From positions 1 to 64,000 of the forward strand of contig JAFGQN010000110.1 of NCBI GenBank assembly GCA_016935665.1: a stretch of 64,000 nucleotides of DNA, written 5' to 3'. The notes beneath the pieces were generated by a model. That model did no database searches. It saw nothing but the letters and a program-made list of their open reading frames with translations, and was not told where the DNA came from. How positions within the stretch are numbered: position 1 is the first letter of the stretch; each line of letters begins with the position of its first letter. The position numbers and the translations under genes are program-made. Below are positions 7,461 through 17,341 of the stretch, in pieces. The DNA comes from Deltaproteobacteria bacterium. Its GTDB lineage: Bacteria > Myxococcota_A > Polyangia > JAAYKL01.

Positions 7461-9002
7461 CTAAAAATTGAATTCCAGCTGAGACGAGAAAAGGAGGTCT
7501 TTGGTGGTGATGATGTCTGTGCCAACCGCCTCGAGGCCCCTGTCCAGGAAAACCGTAAAGTTGTTTTCCAGTTTGAACCCGTGGTTTCCAAAGAAATGGA
7601 TAGTAAGACCACCGGTGATCTCCTGCTGCAGGTCGTCTTTCACATCGTATTTGTGGATAAACGAATAGCGCCATGTAGGTTCAAAATGCTCTTTCAACAG
7701 AATACCGCCCTGGAGATAGGAGCCGATCAGAGCAAGGCCGTTCTGGCTGGAGTCTTCGTCTGTATCCCAGAAATATTCCAATGCCTGATTCTGCAAGGTT
7801 ACAGCCGCACTCAGGGTCAGACCGCTCATTTTAATCATGCCGTCCAGCGACAGATAGTGGACGGTTTTATGGGTTTCTTCGCGTTCGTTGCCATCGTGGT
7901 TGAACTCGGTGGACGCACTGAATCCAACACCGTACCGGAACGGTCCGCCTGCGAAATCGGTGTCATCGTAACCTTTGATGCCATTGTTAAATCCAATTCG
8001 ACCGACAACCACCGGGGCAAAATCCCCTCCCAGCTCCGCCATTTCCGGAGTATATTTGTGAGAGACGTGACTGCCGGTGTTGTTCATTGGTCCGCCGTAT
8101 GCACCGCCGTTAAAGACGCCAACTGCCCATTCCAGACCTTTGGCTTTTTCAAAATCGTTGCTCAGTTGAACACCAATATCCAGAGAACCTCCGATGTCAC
8201 CAATTGGTTCTCGAATGAATCCGCGTTTTGCCGAGGATGTCAGATACCATCTGGATATGGGGCGTTTGAACAGACCCACTTTTATCTGAAGTTTTTTGGG
8301 GATGAACGTCCACGTGGCCAATGCATAAATGGGCTTGTTGGATGAGAAATCCCAATATAGGACGTATCCCAGTCTGGGGTCAAAAGCGTGTCCTGCGAGG
8401 ATAACTCTGGCGTACGGCAGTTCAAAGTTGGAGTGCATGGTGTGATTGGTGCCGGATTCATTGGTGACCGGATCTGCCACGCGGAGCTCATCATTGACAA
8501 AGTTCCAGCGGGCTTTCATCCGGCCGTTTATTTTCAGTTTAAAGTTGCCATCGTTGGTTTTAATGAAGAATCCGCCGTCGTACCCAGTGGTCCCGGATGT
8601 ATCCGGTTCGTCCATGGGCGCCACTTCCGCAATGGGCTCCGGCATCGGGGCGGGGGCTGGCGGAGGCGTCGGTTCGGTGGCCACTTCTTCAGTGGCAGTG
8701 GTCGTCGCTTCGGTTTCTTTAACATCGTCGGCTTTGGCGGCCGCATCGTCCGTTTTAGCGGGCTCTTCTTTGGCGACGGTGGCACTTTTTGCCTTGGCGC
8801 CGGCATTTTTTTTCTTTTCCGCTTTTGGTGTTTCAGCCTTTTTTGCATCGCCATCGGCATCCGCTGATGCATCCGCACCTTTTTCTGCATCACCTTTTGC
8901 TTTTGCCTTTGCGGACAGCGATAGCTGAGCGGACGCAGGCAACGCCAGTAAAATGATTGTTATCCCGGTTAAAAACATTTTCATCTTGTTTTTTCGTTCC
9001 AT
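7461..9002 (-). CDS. Outer-membrane beta-barrel (porin-like) protein with Ala/Lys/Glu-rich N-terminal extension
   Basis: The ATG at 9002 has AAGGA 8 nt upstream and gives a clean signal peptide (KMFLTGITIILLALPASAQ); an ATG 15 codons earlier has no such site. 513 aa. After the signal comes about 110 residues of Ala, Lys, Asp, Glu and then Pro (TPPPAPAPMPEP). The remaining ~370 residues have alternating aromatic/hydrophobic strands with Gly turns (FKLKINGRMKARWNF, LGYVLYWDFSS, KLQIKVGLFKRPISR) and finish in aromatic strand LLFSSQLEFNF, as expected for a barrel. The KVGLFKRP segment resembles phosphate-selective-porin (O/P) like proteins. Single gene; substrate unknown. Confidence 0.75.
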   Translation of the reverse strand: MERKNKMKMFLTGITIILLALPASAQLSLSAKAKAKGDAEKGADASADADGDAKKAETPKAEKKKNAGAKAKSATVAKEEPAKTDDAAAKADDVKETEATTTATEEVATEPTPPPAPAPMPEPIAEVAPMDEPDTSGTTGYDGGFFIKTNDGNFKLKINGRMKARWNFVNDELRVADPVTNESGTNHTMHSNFELPYARVILAGHAFDPRLGYVLYWDFSSNKPIYALATWTFIPKKLQIKVGLFKRPISRWYLTSSAKRGFIREPIGDIGGSLDIGVQLSNDFEKAKGLEWAVGVFNGGAYGGPMNNTGSHVSHKYTPEMAELGGDFAPVVVGRIGFNNGIKGYDDTDFAGGPFRYGVGFSASTEFNHDGNEREETHKTVHYLSLDGMIKMSGLTLSAAVTLQNQALEYFWDTDEDSSQNGLALIGSYLQGGILLKEHFEPTWRYSFIHKYDVKDDLQQEITGGLTIHFFGNHGFKLENNFTVFLDRGLEAVGTDIITTKDLLFSSQLEFNF

Positions 9003-9329
9003 ACATTCATCCTTAGAGTTTGGGGAGTGTGCGGAAAAACCGTTCACTCATCTTTATACCCTGGTTTGCATTAATCGACTGTGCCTCTTTTAGCGTGCAA
9101 GGTAATGTAATGCAACTTTATATCTGTGCAATATTTGAGCTGCAATACGAATTTATTTCAGTGATTCAAGGCTGTTTGAGGATGTTGGATGCGTGTAAAA
9201 TTGTAAATATACATAAATATGGTTATGTGCCGCAATTAAAATTATTAAATCTTTGAAACACAAACCTTCCATGAGTATACAAGGGGGAAGTCTTCTGGAA
9301 ATTTCGCAGCGATACAGGAATCAATTATT
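9003..9329. other. Divergent promoter region between the barrel protein and cysC
   Basis: 327 bp between two divergently transcribed genes. The middle (about 9100-9260) is AT-rich and must hold both promoters. I could not pick a convincing -35/-10 pair or a palindrome, and no small gene is visible. Confidence 0.4.
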
Positions 9330-13159: not shown

Positions 13160-13978
13160 CTAATCATTGTCATCATCTGGATCGAACGATGGAGGAGGGA
13201 AGAGTGTATCCAGCTTGATGGGTGCCCACAGCGCCTCTTTTTTTTCTACATCGAAAGGGACGAACATTTGCTGGTCGCCCCAATAATCAACCTCTGGGTT
13301 GGGGAATTCGTCGTCATCTCTGTGATTTAGAATTGCGGCAAGAACAGGTGGATTTTCCCCGACATCGCACAGAACGCCCGCATCAAAAAATGCTTGAGAG
13401 CTGGGCTCGTTCCACCAGAAATCGGGATTCACTTCATTGCACTTGCCTTCAATAGCACCATCTGTCTGGAGAGTATAAACCGTGAAATCACGATTTTGGG
13501 GAATAATATATACGCAGAGCGAATGAGGAACGTGAAACTTATCTCTGTAATCGGGCCAAAAAACATCGACTTTGAGCGGCAGATCGTGCCAATCAACCTT
13601 ATCTGAAGTGTCACTATCCGAGAATGAATCCGTACAACACGGGTCATCTGTTGGTTTTTCAATTTCAGTTTCAGTTTCAGTTCCAGTTCCTGTTCCAGTT
13701 TCGGTTTCGGTTCCAGTTCCAGTGTCAGTTTCGGTTTCGGTTTTAGTCTCTGTGTGTGTCTCTGGCTCTGTCTCGGGGGCGCTATCCGAATCTCCGTTGA
13801 GGCTATCTGATTCTGTTTCGGAAGTGGCTTGTTCCTCCTCCTCGCTTCCACCGGAATCGTTATCTTCGCTGGGACTCCCCAGTGAGATATCACCATCCCA
13901 GTCACAACCGGAAGTCGCCAGAAGCACCAGTGCCACAGCAATGAACAGGGCCGGAAAGTCAATCAGTTTGTACCGCAT
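13160..13978 (-). CDS. Surface lipoprotein with Thr/Glu/Gly spacer
   Basis: 272 aa, not a known family. The signal peptide ends in a lipobox (LVLLATSGC). Residues about 30-115 are an acidic spacer (EEEEQ, then a run of TETE and TGTGTE repeats encoded by a degenerate hexamer tract at about 13655-13760). A compact C-terminal domain of about 155 residues follows, with several Cys and many Trp/aromatics (WHDLPLKVDVFWPDYRDKFHVPH). Its ATG lies inside the end of the FecR-type gene (16-bp overlap), so it is translationally linked to the sigma/anti-sigma operon and may be part of its sensing or output. Confidence 0.7.
   Translation of the reverse strand: MRYKLIDFPALFIAVALVLLATSGCDWDGDISLGSPSEDNDSGGSEEEEQATSETESDSLNGDSDSAPETEPETHTETKTETETDTGTGTETETGTGTGTETETEIEKPTDDPCCTDSFSDSDTSDKVDWHDLPLKVDVFWPDYRDKFHVPHSLCVYIIPQNRDFTVYTLQTDGAIEGKCNEVNPDFWWNEPSSQAFFDAGVLCDVGENPPVLAAILNHRDDDEFPNPEVDYWGDQQMFVPFDVEKKEALWAPIKLDTLFPPPSFDPDDDND
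13655..13760 (-). repeat. Degenerate hexanucleotide repeat coding a Thr-Glu/Thr-Gly spacer
   Basis: Alternating GTTTCA, GTTTCG and GTTCCA units on the plus strand encode Thr-Glu and Thr-Gly dipeptides on the minus strand. The tract is prone to length change by slippage in steps of two residues, without breaking the frame. Confidence 0.6.
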
Positions 13979-15480
13979 GCCGCCAGTCCCTCACGTGCCT
14001 GTGTGGCTTTTCTGGAATCGGGCCATCGGGTGATGATGGCTTTAAAGTCTTTTTGAGCCAGACCGCATTTACCGGTCTGTTGATGGATTTGGCCGCGATA
14101 AAGGAGCATTTCAGATGCAAACGAACCTTTTCCAAATTTAGCCAAATAGTTGTTCGATGTCTGGAACAGGGCGCTGTCATTGCCAATTTGACGCAACGCG
14201 CGCGCTTTGCCAATCAGAGCTGTTTCAGACAAATAACCACTGGGCACCGATGCCAGGTATGTATCGAAGTACGCCAGCGCCACATTCGGCTTGCCAAGTG
14301 CGTTCAATTCCAGTTGCGCCAGGGCCACCATGGCGTTCTGGGCTGCGGTAGTGCGGCTGTAATCGCCGATCAGCTGCTTGTAAATGGCTTCGGCAGCCGC
14401 GTAATTCTGTTGTTGGCGATACGCGCGCGCCAATCGTGCCAGCAGGTCGGGGACATCCTGCGATTGCGTATCTGACTGCTGAGCCTCTTCAATGTGGCGT
14501 CTGGCTTCTCCAAGACGTTTCTCTTTGATGGCTTTTTGAGCCAGTTTAGTTGCGTTTTGTTCGGTTCTGGATGATTTGTCTTTCGCCGCACCCCGGGAGC
14601 CGTTGTTTCCAGCCTGCGCGGAACGGATATTCGCCTTAAGTGTCCCCATTAATTCCCGATCACTGTCCAGCTCTTGTTTTGATGCAATCACCGATCCCTT
14701 ATCGTCTCCGATTGTGAGTTGATGGTTTTTCGAAACTACGCTGGTTTTTCCAGAACGTTTGTTATTAACCTTAACTTTGCCTCTAAGCACACGCACATGC
14801 TGGACCCCAAGGTCATCCACTTCCACCGAGAAGATGGTTCCCACCACTTCAACCACACCGCCCGGACCCACCACTTCAAATTTTTCGCCGGCTTTTCGTT
14901 TGGTCACTTCCACAACGATTCGTCCCTGAATCAGTTCGATGCGGGTCAACTCGTTGGAAAGTATGTTTAAATTGACCAGTGCGTGTTCCGTTCCCCATAC
15001 TTTGTCCTCTCGCATCAGTTTGACTGGCGTTGATTTCTCAAATTGAATGAGGTTGTATGCCTTTGGCGCAATAGTTTCGGTTTCGATTTTTTTCGCAACC
15101 TGTTGCCGCAGTTCATTAGACTGTTCGCCATTGTCCTGTGCACCGGGCCAGAATAATACGAAAGCGATAACGACCGCTGCAGCAATGCCGGCGACAGCCA
15201 TCCACGGTGCCAGGCGACCTGCAAACAACGGCTCCCTTGATGAACCGGGCATTCGGCCTTCCAGAGCATCGGTGATGATTTTGCGCTCTTTAAACGGTGA
15301 AACCGCTGGTGCACTCAATTTTGCCCACTGACGCATTTCATCGGATAACTCTTTCAAATCGCTGCAGTGCAGGCAATCCTGGAGATGCTCTTCGATAATT
15401 CGCTTTTCGTGCTCGAGCAAATATTCGGTTGGTGGTTTCGCCAGTTTCATTGAAACCCAGCGACACATGGTATTACTCAT
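13963..15480 (-). CDS. Zinc-finger/FecR/TPR membrane regulator (probable anti-sigma factor)
   Basis: 505 aa from the ATG at 15480, which has GGAGG upstream and overlaps the sigma-factor stop as ATGA; an ATG ten codons earlier lies inside the sigma gene. Domains: a zf-HC2-like anti-sigma zinc motif (HLQDCLHC, H-x3-C-x2-C) near residue 35, one membrane helix (MAVAGIAAAVVIAFVLFW) near 90-110, a periplasmic FecR domain (KFEVVGPGGVVEVVGTIFSVEV, VLRGKVKV), then Ala/Lys-rich linker and several TPRs. Family knowledge: it would hold the sigma factor until a periplasmic signal. The fusion of all three modules in one chain is the notable point. Confidence 0.83.
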   Translation of the reverse strand: MSNTMCRWVSMKLAKPPTEYLLEHEKRIIEEHLQDCLHCSDLKELSDEMRQWAKLSAPAVSPFKERKIITDALEGRMPGSSREPLFAGRLAPWMAVAGIAAAVVIAFVLFWPGAQDNGEQSNELRQQVAKKIETETIAPKAYNLIQFEKSTPVKLMREDKVWGTEHALVNLNILSNELTRIELIQGRIVVEVTKRKAGEKFEVVGPGGVVEVVGTIFSVEVDDLGVQHVRVLRGKVKVNNKRSGKTSVVSKNHQLTIGDDKGSVIASKQELDSDRELMGTLKANIRSAQAGNNGSRGAAKDKSSRTEQNATKLAQKAIKEKRLGEARRHIEEAQQSDTQSQDVPDLLARLARAYRQQQNYAAAEAIYKQLIGDYSRTTAAQNAMVALAQLELNALGKPNVALAYFDTYLASVPSGYLSETALIGKARALRQIGNDSALFQTSNNYLAKFGKGSFASEMLLYRGQIHQQTGKCGLAQKDFKAIITRWPDSRKATQAREGLAACGTN

Positions 15481-16097
15481 TGGAATGCCTCCTTCAGCAA
15501 ACCACTGCACCCAGGGTCTTTTAGAACTCGTTCCATCAGTTCTTTACGACCATGTTGAATGCGTTTCTTAGCGGTTTCCACACTGCAATCCATGATTTGG
15601 GCCACTTCAGAATCGACGTACCCAAAAAATATTGACATTACCGCGGCGTTCCGTTTCCGCGGTGCAATCCGGTTTAAGTGGTGCTGCAACAAATTAATCA
15701 GTTGATGTCCGACCTGTTCGTCTTCCGGTGTGATATCCCAGTGCCGACTATCCTGCGACGGATCCGCATCGGCAAACAGGCTTGTGAAACGAATCCGTTT
15801 CCTTCCCTGAGTTCGCACCACATTGTATACAACGGTATCCAACCACGCGGTAAACCGATCGTAATTTCTCAACCCAGGAAGATCTCTGAATACGGTAACC
15901 ATAGCGATTTGTGTCACGTCGTCAATGTCATATCGATTTCCATATGACAAATACACCAATTTTCGTACTCTCGGAAATGCTGCGACAGCCAACGCTTCGC
16001 GCGCCATGGGGTCGCCGGATACTGCACGCTCCACCAATTCCGCGTTTTTCAGAATTTCGGTTTTGTTGCCTTGAGTTTTTGCTTGTACCGTATGCAT
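15477..16097 (-). CDS. ECF-type RNA polymerase sigma factor
   Basis: About 206 aa. Region 2: FPRVRKLVYLSYGNRYDIDDVTQIAMVTVFRDLPGLRNYDRFTAWLDTVVYNVVR. Region 4: helix-turn-helix FFGYVDSEVAQIMDCSVETAKKRIQHGRKEL. The ATG at 16097 is used; a GTG at 16118 is an alternative. The stop codon overlaps the start of the zinc-finger/FecR gene as ATGA, so both are made together. The upstream gene ends only about 40-60 bp away, consistent with one operon. Confidence 0.88.
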   Translation of the reverse strand: MHTVQAKTQGNKTEILKNAELVERAVSGDPMAREALAVAAFPRVRKLVYLSYGNRYDIDDVTQIAMVTVFRDLPGLRNYDRFTAWLDTVVYNVVRTQGRKRIRFTSLFADADPSQDSRHWDITPEDEQVGHQLINLLQHHLNRIAPRKRNAAVMSIFFGYVDSEVAQIMDCSVETAKKRIQHGRKELMERVLKDPGCSGLLKEAFQ

Positions 16098-16157
16098 ATA
16101 AAATTGCCACACCTTCACATCATAGAGCGCACTTTGCGCACAAAAAGGGAAAATTAT

Positions 16158-17258
16158 CTAGCGCAGCCAGAAAATAACCCCCAGCAGAGCTCGGCCCTGT
16201 AGTTCGCCATAGTAGAATATCAGATTTTCGCCGTACAAGTAACGATTTGCTGACTGAAAAAGGTCTCCACCCACTCGGGCGACAATTGAAAATATCGGGT
16301 TTACATTGTAAGTGAACGATAGTGACGCGCCCATACCGAAATATATTTCGCCATCTGCATTACCGAACGATTGGGATGACGATGACGACGACACACGTGT
16401 CACATCCAGAATGAACGACATTCCAATACCCAGTGAGAATGATGGCGCTGCCCAGAACAATTCTCCCCTGAACCGCAGCGGAATACGGAGCAGGTTAAAT
16501 GATAGATTGGAAGTGAAAGCAATTCCAGGCTCAATTCCAAAAAGCAGCAGACGACCCACTTTAAGGCACAGCATTGCAGTGGCGCCATTGCTCCACACAT
16601 TTTTCCTGGACATCACCCATGGACTGAATCCGGCGCCAATTCCCGGTCTCAAAGTCAATGGGGATGTATTTCGGAAGCGGCGTTTCCGTTTTTTTACCTC
16701 TGTTATGCGCTTATTGCTGTCGGACAGAGCTGGTTTGGCGGGCGTTCCATTGACAGTGGTTTCGGTTGGCGTTGAAGGTTGTATCTCGTTGGCGTCTTCG
16801 GCGGGGGCGGGGGTAAGCCAGGGGGACAACATTGCCTGGATCACTGCGGCAATGGCATCGCATTGAACCTCCCAGCTGCCTGTGTTCTCAGGGAGTTGTC
16901 TTGTGAACAAATGATTTTCGTCGTCTACACTAACGAAAAGATAAAACTGCACCGCATTCAGCCAAAGCACGGCCTTCGTTCCCGTCTGCTGCTGCAGGCG
17001 TCTGGCGTCTGCCACGGTGGACGCATCGTATTCCAGGGGAGATTCGGGGATATACATTTTTGATGTGGTGTTGTAGTCCATCAGTTGCGCATTGAGAGAA
17101 TCCTGAAGCGCCCGGTGTTTTTTTTGAGATTCCCGGGGCGTCAACAAAAGCAGATCAGAGGCCTCCGCTCTGTCTGGGCAATAGATGGAACCAAGTGCGA
17201 CGTATACCGCAATATGAACCAATATAGCAGCAGGCGACGTGAAAAACGCAACGTTCAT
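16158..17258 (-). CDS. Putative outer-membrane protein of the sigma operon
   Basis: 366 aa, no family recognised. A signal peptide (ILVHIAVYVALGSIY) is followed by a globular part of about 130 residues (LLLLTPRESQKKHRALQDSLNAQL, with QQTGTKAVLWLNAVQFYLFVSV), a Pro/Thr-rich linker, a basic patch (KKRKRRFRN), and about 150 residues of Gly/aromatic alternating strands (LFGIEPGIAFTSNLSFNLLRIPLRFRGELFW) ending in VIFWLR, which look like a small beta-barrel. It is the first gene ahead of the ECF sigma factor and may be its target or sensor. Confidence 0.6.
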   Translation of the reverse strand: MNVAFFTSPAAILVHIAVYVALGSIYCPDRAEASDLLLLTPRESQKKHRALQDSLNAQLMDYNTTSKMYIPESPLEYDASTVADARRLQQQTGTKAVLWLNAVQFYLFVSVDDENHLFTRQLPENTGSWEVQCDAIAAVIQAMLSPWLTPAPAEDANEIQPSTPTETTVNGTPAKPALSDSNKRITEVKKRKRRFRNTSPLTLRPGIGAGFSPWVMSRKNVWSNGATAMLCLKVGRLLLFGIEPGIAFTSNLSFNLLRIPLRFRGELFWAAPSFSLGIGMSFILDVTRVSSSSSSQSFGNADGEIYFGMGASLSFTYNVNPIFSIVARVGGDLFQSANRYLYGENLIFYYGELQGRALLGVIFWLR

Positions 17259-17315
17259 TCGAAATACTTTATAGATTGTTGCAGGGTTTTACAATGCCAA
17301 TCACGAGAGGGGCAG

Positions 17316-17341
17316 AGATATCGGTTTACACAACGATATCT
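17316..17341. promoter_or_regulatory. Inverted repeat upstream of the sigma-factor operon
   Basis: AGATATCG and CGATATCT form perfect 8-bp arms around a 10-bp spacer, 58 bp upstream of the first gene of the sigma operon and 37 bp downstream of rnfE. No T-run follows on the minus strand, so an operator or promoter-proximal site is more likely than a terminator. The binding protein is unknown. Confidence 0.45.

Follow-up and report, generated by a model that had tools for sequence, protein, structure and literature searches.

Here we describe a four-gene operon at positions 13160-17341, on the minus strand, of a 64,000-nucleotide stretch of DNA (hereafter the window) from Deltaproteobacteria bacterium (contig JAFGQN010000110.1). 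This operon probably encodes a cell-surface signalling unit that needs no TonB receptor, in which an outer-membrane barrel protein provides the input, a membrane regulator carrying FecR and tetratricopeptide repeat (TPR) domains acts as the receiver and an extracytoplasmic function (ECF) sigma factor is the output. The open reading frames (ORFs) and their translations show four closely packed genes in the order barrel, sigma factor, regulator and lipoprotein. The first encodes the barrel protein (366 amino acids, 16158-17258) and is followed by the gene for the ECF sigma factor (213 amino acids, 15477-16118), whose identity is clear from matches to sigma70-ECF (54.3 bits, above the cut-off of 42.9) and to Pfam regions 2 (Sigma70_r2, E 4.3e-7) and 4 (r4_2, E 5.4e-6). 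The regulator, a membrane protein of anti-sigma type (505 amino acids, 13963-15480; assigned from its ORF, Pfam, a model and fold matches), begins at an ATG (15480) that overlaps the sigma stop (15477), a GTG start at 15510 also being possible. Its end (13963) is in turn overlapped by the start (13978) of the lipoprotein gene (272 amino acids, 13160-13978), the product of which has a lipobox at Cys25, a Thr/Glu spacer and counterparts in the operons of five relatives. A preliminary description, made from the sequence alone, had placed an ECF sigma operon here together with a barrel-like protein and a spacer lipoprotein and had noticed no TonB receptor gene nearby. Indeed, all four ORFs were found at these places on the minus strand, the barrel was borne out by a structural model and a fold match, and the window's contig gave no TonB receptor match. 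An Rfam scan of the window returned no matches.

The product of the first gene has no Pfam family at E 1, nor do 22 members of its family at E 0.01. Its AlphaFold2 model (mean predicted local distance difference test score, pLDDT, 75.9; 8-row alignment) suggests an outer-membrane 8-strand barrel with a TolB-N-like periplasmic domain on a disordered linker. The N-terminal periplasmic domain (residues 33-148, 16815-17162) is modelled over residues 35-148 as beta-alpha-beta-alpha-beta-beta-beta-alpha. In VIA-align comparisons, residues 32-147 matched TolB (7mx5_A, Z 10.7, root-mean-square deviation (rmsd) 3.0, 106 aligned) and the anticodon-binding domains of class II tRNA synthetases (HisRS 3net_B, Z 9.2; 1kmm_B, Z 8.7). 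The linker (residues ~149-200, 16659-16814) has pLDDT below 50 across residues 152-199, and none of 50 columns is invariant in alignment A6. Eight long strands then follow at residues 203-364, with pLDDT mostly near 90, forming the C-terminal barrel (residues 201-366, 16161-16658), which matched NspA (1p4t, Z 18.1, rmsd 2.5, 151 aligned) and OmpA (1qjp, Z 17.5); the absence of a family from such structure matches excludes nothing. Set against known families, the protein shares the 8-strand barrel of OmpA and ends with it, having no OmpA-like peptidoglycan-binding domain; neither the plug nor the 22-strand barrel of TonB-dependent receptors was found by Pfam or in the model; and the TolB-N-like first domain is followed by the barrel where TolB has its propeller.

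The regulator had been described as combining a zinc motif, a membrane helix, a FecR domain and TPRs in a single protein, and Pfam, hydropathy and the model uphold both these parts and their order. The cytoplasmic anti-sigma domain (15256-15480; model helices at residues 6-14, 23-35, 37-54 and 62-73) carries the Hx3Cx2C pattern of the zinc-type class I domains plus an upstream Cys. The conservation of these Cys and His residues, on which the preliminary description had staked its reading, was confirmed, since Cys6, His32, Cys36 and Cys39 are unchanged in all eight aligned regulators (the window's and seven from relatives). A membrane helix (residues 90-110, 15151-15213), seen in both hydropathy and model, leads to the periplasmic FecR domain (residues ~143-260, 14701-15054; Pfam FecR, E 8.6e-8), and the protein ends in a BamD/CpoB-like TPR domain (residues 310-501, 13978-14553) which was matched by Pfam, has model pLDDT mostly above 90 and is represented in the model by TPR helices only. 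Overall, the model (mean pLDDT 77.1; 9-row alignment) runs from anti-sigma-like helices through the membrane helix to a domain of beta structure and then eleven helices of TPR type. Invariant columns in the narrower alignment A3 numbered 39 of 192 in the TPR domain, 14 of 75 in the anti-sigma domain and 17 of 118 in the FecR domain. By VIA-align, residues 140-279 align to residues 111-249 of PupR (6ovk_R, Z 18.1), and residues 380-505 match BamD (2yhc, Z 18.2) and YbgF (2xev, Z 17.5); among PDB sequences the TPRs matched CpoB (E 1.8e-8). The periplasmic part of PupR has been reported to consist of a juxta-membrane subdomain (residues 110-238) and an STN subdomain (residues 250-324), and binding of the transducer's signalling domain requires both (PMC7186176). 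Neither STN nor DUF4974 was matched by the window's regulator in Pfam up to E 1, or by nine homologues at 0.01. On the modelled structure, the FecR domain thus appears to be the counterpart of the PupR juxta-membrane subdomain, with the TPRs standing where the STN subdomain would be.

The operon has many counterparts in its own genome (8.16 Mb in 249 contigs), in which we counted 33 FecR places, 68 sigma70-ECF places and 12 TonB-receptor barrel places. We examined 34 places, namely the 33 FecR places and one more (C224) from the zf-HC2 list; in 29 of them a same-strand sigma gene lies no more than 1.5 kb upstream. The idea of a self-contained envelope-sensing device, put forward in the preliminary description, is upheld in that the unit is unlike a FecR/TonB-receptor pair, but the operon is no singleton. 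Searched directly against its own genome, the window's barrel sequence found itself only, so that profiles were required. With these, a barrel was found at 20 of the 29 sigma-linked places, before the sigma gene in 14, after the regulator on the same strand in five and convergent in one. The genes after the regulator at C3, C88 and C108 have a like layout by eye and are not barrel members at E 1e-3; with a profile of the downstream-type barrels, C88 scored E 0.0023 and C3 E 0.037, and C108 was unlisted. The convergent arrangement occurs in two genomes of the genus, at G000:C210 (L038) and G001:C136 (L133). The Hx3Cx2C pattern is present in 11 of the 29 sigma-linked regulators, suggesting from sequence that the zinc motif is dispensable for the regulator family as a whole; zinc motif and barrel position were related at p 0.03 (Fisher, post hoc). 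Class I anti-sigma groups are reported to contain both zinc and non-zinc members (PMC7406223), as do the regulators of the window's genome, and by analogy zinc may have a structural role. Among further arrangements, G000:C191 (L053) holds two divergent sigma/FecR/barrel operons ~9 kb apart with spacer lipoproteins in between; at G000:C157 (L130) barrel and sigma factor are accompanied by a regulator matched in two overlapping pieces, which looks like a decaying or frameshifted copy. Five FecR-domain places have no upstream sigma gene (G000:C62, C241:23878, C243:54557, C36:121287 and C201:6893).

Because the search of this genome with the broad barrel profile, A5, was partly circular (18 of the 22 places found are rows of A5 itself; of the other four, three adjoin a sigma or FecR gene and one does not), the claim of linkage rests on a second profile, A2, and on other genomes. 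Profile A2 consists of nine rows, all orthologues or homologues of the window operon's barrel, and was run on 14 genomes, all of which have FecR places (4 to 33 each). By name, the relatives are metagenome assemblies of 'Deltaproteobacteria bacterium', and more distant ones are called Polyangia, Sandaracinaceae, Myxococcales or Myxococcota; the assemblies are fragmented, and several loci end at contig borders. The search returned 45 rows, which after removal of seven own rows and one split protein left 37 further members, and 35 of these lie beside a sigma/FecR locus: for 29 a listed FecR place lies no further than 4 kb away, and another six have sigma factor and regulator in the fetched sequence (one regulator being cut by the contig end). 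The neighbourhood survey proposed in the preliminary description found all four genes together in the window and at five places in relatives (G002:C150, G005:C56, G010:C461, G011:C94 and G004:C347), while at G001:C323 and G004:C338 barrel, sigma factor and regulator are present up to the contig end. In G008 the barrel comes after the regulator, and in G002 the flanks are as in the window, with rnf genes before and a MATE-type gene after (names read from translations). Further afield, 30 phylum loci were fetched, one per genome, from 30 of the 33 phylum genomes matched by A5. A sigma gene lies within ~1.5 kb in 23 of them and a sigma or regulator gene in 27; outside the window's family the corresponding counts are 20 and 24 of 27. 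Barrel matches at L147, L154 and L162, in other families of the phylum, have neither gene within 1.5 kb. Among 20 named loci drawn from the regulator profile, the FecI/FecR-type loci of Sphingobacterium (L113, L114) and Achromobacter (L123) have no member of the barrel family; a long protein follows the regulator there (1103, 1091 and 811 amino acids, respectively), which by eye, from its N-terminal sequence, appears to be a TonB receptor. Taken together, these comparisons of sequence indicate that the operon is no isolated oddity but one instance of a module that recurs, its partner being a barrel protein without annotation.

How might such a unit work? In our proposal, the ECF sigma factor would be held, and later handed over, by the single-pass inner-membrane regulator through its zinc-type anti-sigma domain in the cytoplasm, and the co-encoded outer-membrane protein would give input to the periplasmic FecR and TPR domains. 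Carried on its disordered linker of ~50 residues, the TolB-N-like domain could reach towards the inner membrane and, by analogy, take the place of the transducer's signalling domain. In the known systems this domain is described as already attached to the regulator prior to the signal, and in FoxA/FoxR such binding shields the regulator from proteolysis (PMC11637429). Whatever the signal, a change at the barrel would then alter the contact of its N-terminal domain with FecR/TPR and leave the regulator open to proteolysis, as in FoxR/FecR, thus releasing active sigma factor to act on its putative target genes. The direction of this contact, from barrel to regulator, is likewise conjectural.

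Several observations weigh against this proposal. Nine of the 29 sigma-linked regulators in the window's genome are without a barrel by the A5 profile. Three of these nine (C112, C195 and C241) gained one by an iterated profile, where the first-pass values were weak (E 2e-4 to 4e-4; 9e-5 to 4e-4 for all four inclusions, C208, C112, C241 and C195) and the values after inclusion are inflated. Among the relatives, two of the 37 A2 members (G004:C268 and G004:C121) have neither sigma factor nor regulator, and G007 carries the orthologous barrel (L102) and the sigma/regulator pair (L101) on separate contigs, where they may work in trans. Across the phylum, few genomes were matched by A5 (33 of 282 at E <=1e-6, with six candidates per genome scored). 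The alignments behind the two structural models are also shallow, with 8 and 9 rows. Finally, linkage as such fits a regulated target equally well as a receptor.

This last point leads to an alternative that we regard as rather unlikely, namely that barrel and lipoprotein are only targets of a sigma/regulator pair which senses some other periplasmic cue and controls these surface proteins. Sigma operons often include their own target genes; the separation of the barrel from sigma factor and regulator in G007 would be in keeping with this, as would two further spacer lipoproteins just upstream of the operon in G002. However, the N-terminal domain of the barrel protein is a distinct unit carried by a flexible linker, and the genes stay linked whichever comes first (14 upstream, five downstream and one convergent among 29 places). 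The promoter region also argues against a mere target. A promoter-like element, TTGTAA-N17-TAAAGT (17266-17294 on the minus strand; 17256-17294 with the start codon), lies 7 nt before the ATG of the barrel gene and is shared with close orthologues: a TANNNT box stands 6-9 nt before the ATG in all six, the window included, and TTG-N17 in four of the six. This sigma-70-like element does not resemble an ECF target, and a promoter that looks constitutive suits a sensor gene more than a target gene. The element is missing from most of 23 other barrel genes inspected. So near the ATG, it suggests that the transcript may be leaderless; leaderless starts as a general habit were not supported in the window's genome, where Shine-Dalgarno-like sites dominate.

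It is also conceivable, but improbable, that the operon encodes a private assembly monitor, in which the BamD/CpoB-like TPRs bind the C-terminal strand of the unassembled cognate barrel and so form an RseA/DegS-like stress switch with one client. BamD is indeed the top structure match of the TPRs (Z 18.2), with CpoB/YbgF next by structure and sequence, and the cognate barrel is adjacent in 20 of the 29 places; Z values of ~15-18 are, however, common to many TPR proteins, and such a monitor would leave no role for the TolB-N-like and FecR domains. Were this instead a canonical FecI/FecR system with the gene for its TonB-dependent transducer at another site in the genome, the 12 receptor barrel places there could supply one; but these stand against 33 FecR places, none lies on the window's contig and the regulator has no STN subdomain, making this reading very improbable.

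A wider claim can be considered, albeit tentatively and as something we would not yet expect to hold: that there is a phylum-wide, many-copy class of cell-surface signalling systems, of which some single genomes would have 20 or more separate channels, in which a TolB-N/8-strand-barrel protein replaces the TonB transducer, TPRs replace STN and the lipoprotein, on or through the barrel, serves as a surface probe. Of the whole proposed mechanism, we are least sure of what the lipoprotein does, and the surface probe is a guess; the protein probably serves as an accessory at the outer membrane or the cell surface. Its mature form begins C-[DEQ]-W-[DN]-G-[DNT]-I (13886-13906, minus strand) in five of six aligned lipoproteins. 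Some operon lipoproteins have a short hydrophobic stretch directly after the lipid Cys, and lipoproteins with long Ser/Asp/Thr/Gly/Glu spacers are very numerous at loci L031-L062.

A perfect 8+8 inverted repeat ahead of the operon, reported in the preliminary description, does exist at 17316-17341, outside the conserved unit, with the promoter-like element between it and the barrel start codon. As an operator it was rejected, since its frequency is at chance level (27 perfect 8+8 repeats with spacers of 3-20 nt in the window) and it is absent from all six orthologous upstream regions that we compared. Elsewhere in the window, a Porin_O_P-like protein (7461-9047) has an N-terminal segment rich in Lys, Ala and Glu.

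To conclude, we compare the operon with known systems. In the open PMC literature, at the level of titles and abstract openings and with subscription papers outside scope, we found no description of a sigma/FecR-TPR/barrel unit. Like FecI-FecR-FecA and PupI-PupR-PupB, the operon pairs an adjacent ECF sigma factor with a single-pass regulator having an N-terminal anti-sigma domain and a FecR-fold juxta-membrane domain, and adds an outer-membrane barrel protein with an N-terminal periplasmic domain, the order of candidate signalling domain then barrel being that of FecA. Unlike them, it has no TonB receptor, plug or STN domain, the regulator having TPRs instead of the latter, and it has an 8-strand barrel, a TolB-N-like candidate signalling domain and a zinc motif. 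The likeness to TolB (N-terminal domain) and to BamD/CpoB (TPRs) is by fold only, the window's proteins lacking the propeller and being anchored differently. VreA-VreI-VreR (PUMA3) of Pseudomonas aeruginosa also combines FecR-type signalling with an unusual partner, a small protein that carries a TolA-like domain and differs from ordinary TonB receptors; as described, however, VreA has an STN-like N-terminus and no barrel (PMC2729926), whereas the window's protein has a barrel and a TolB-N-like domain. A like puzzle is posed by LIC_12757/LIC_12756 of Leptospira interrogans, reported as an ECF sigma factor whose single-pass regulator is FecR-like and for which no TonB receptor bearing a signalling extension is known; the word tetratricopeptide is absent from the main text of that report, in which we noticed no barrel partner named, and it is for Leptospira that FecR-like regulators without an obvious receptor have been stated to be an open question (PMC12155086). 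For such receptor-less regulators our analysis offers a candidate partner in one particular family of unannotated outer-membrane proteins, whose defined periplasmic domain lends itself to expression and to testing against the regulator. If the proposal is true, cell-surface signalling would extend beyond iron and TonB, and a role would be suggested for a barrel family without a Pfam entry, and for many sigma factors, in the little-studied Myxococcota/Deltaproteobacteria.

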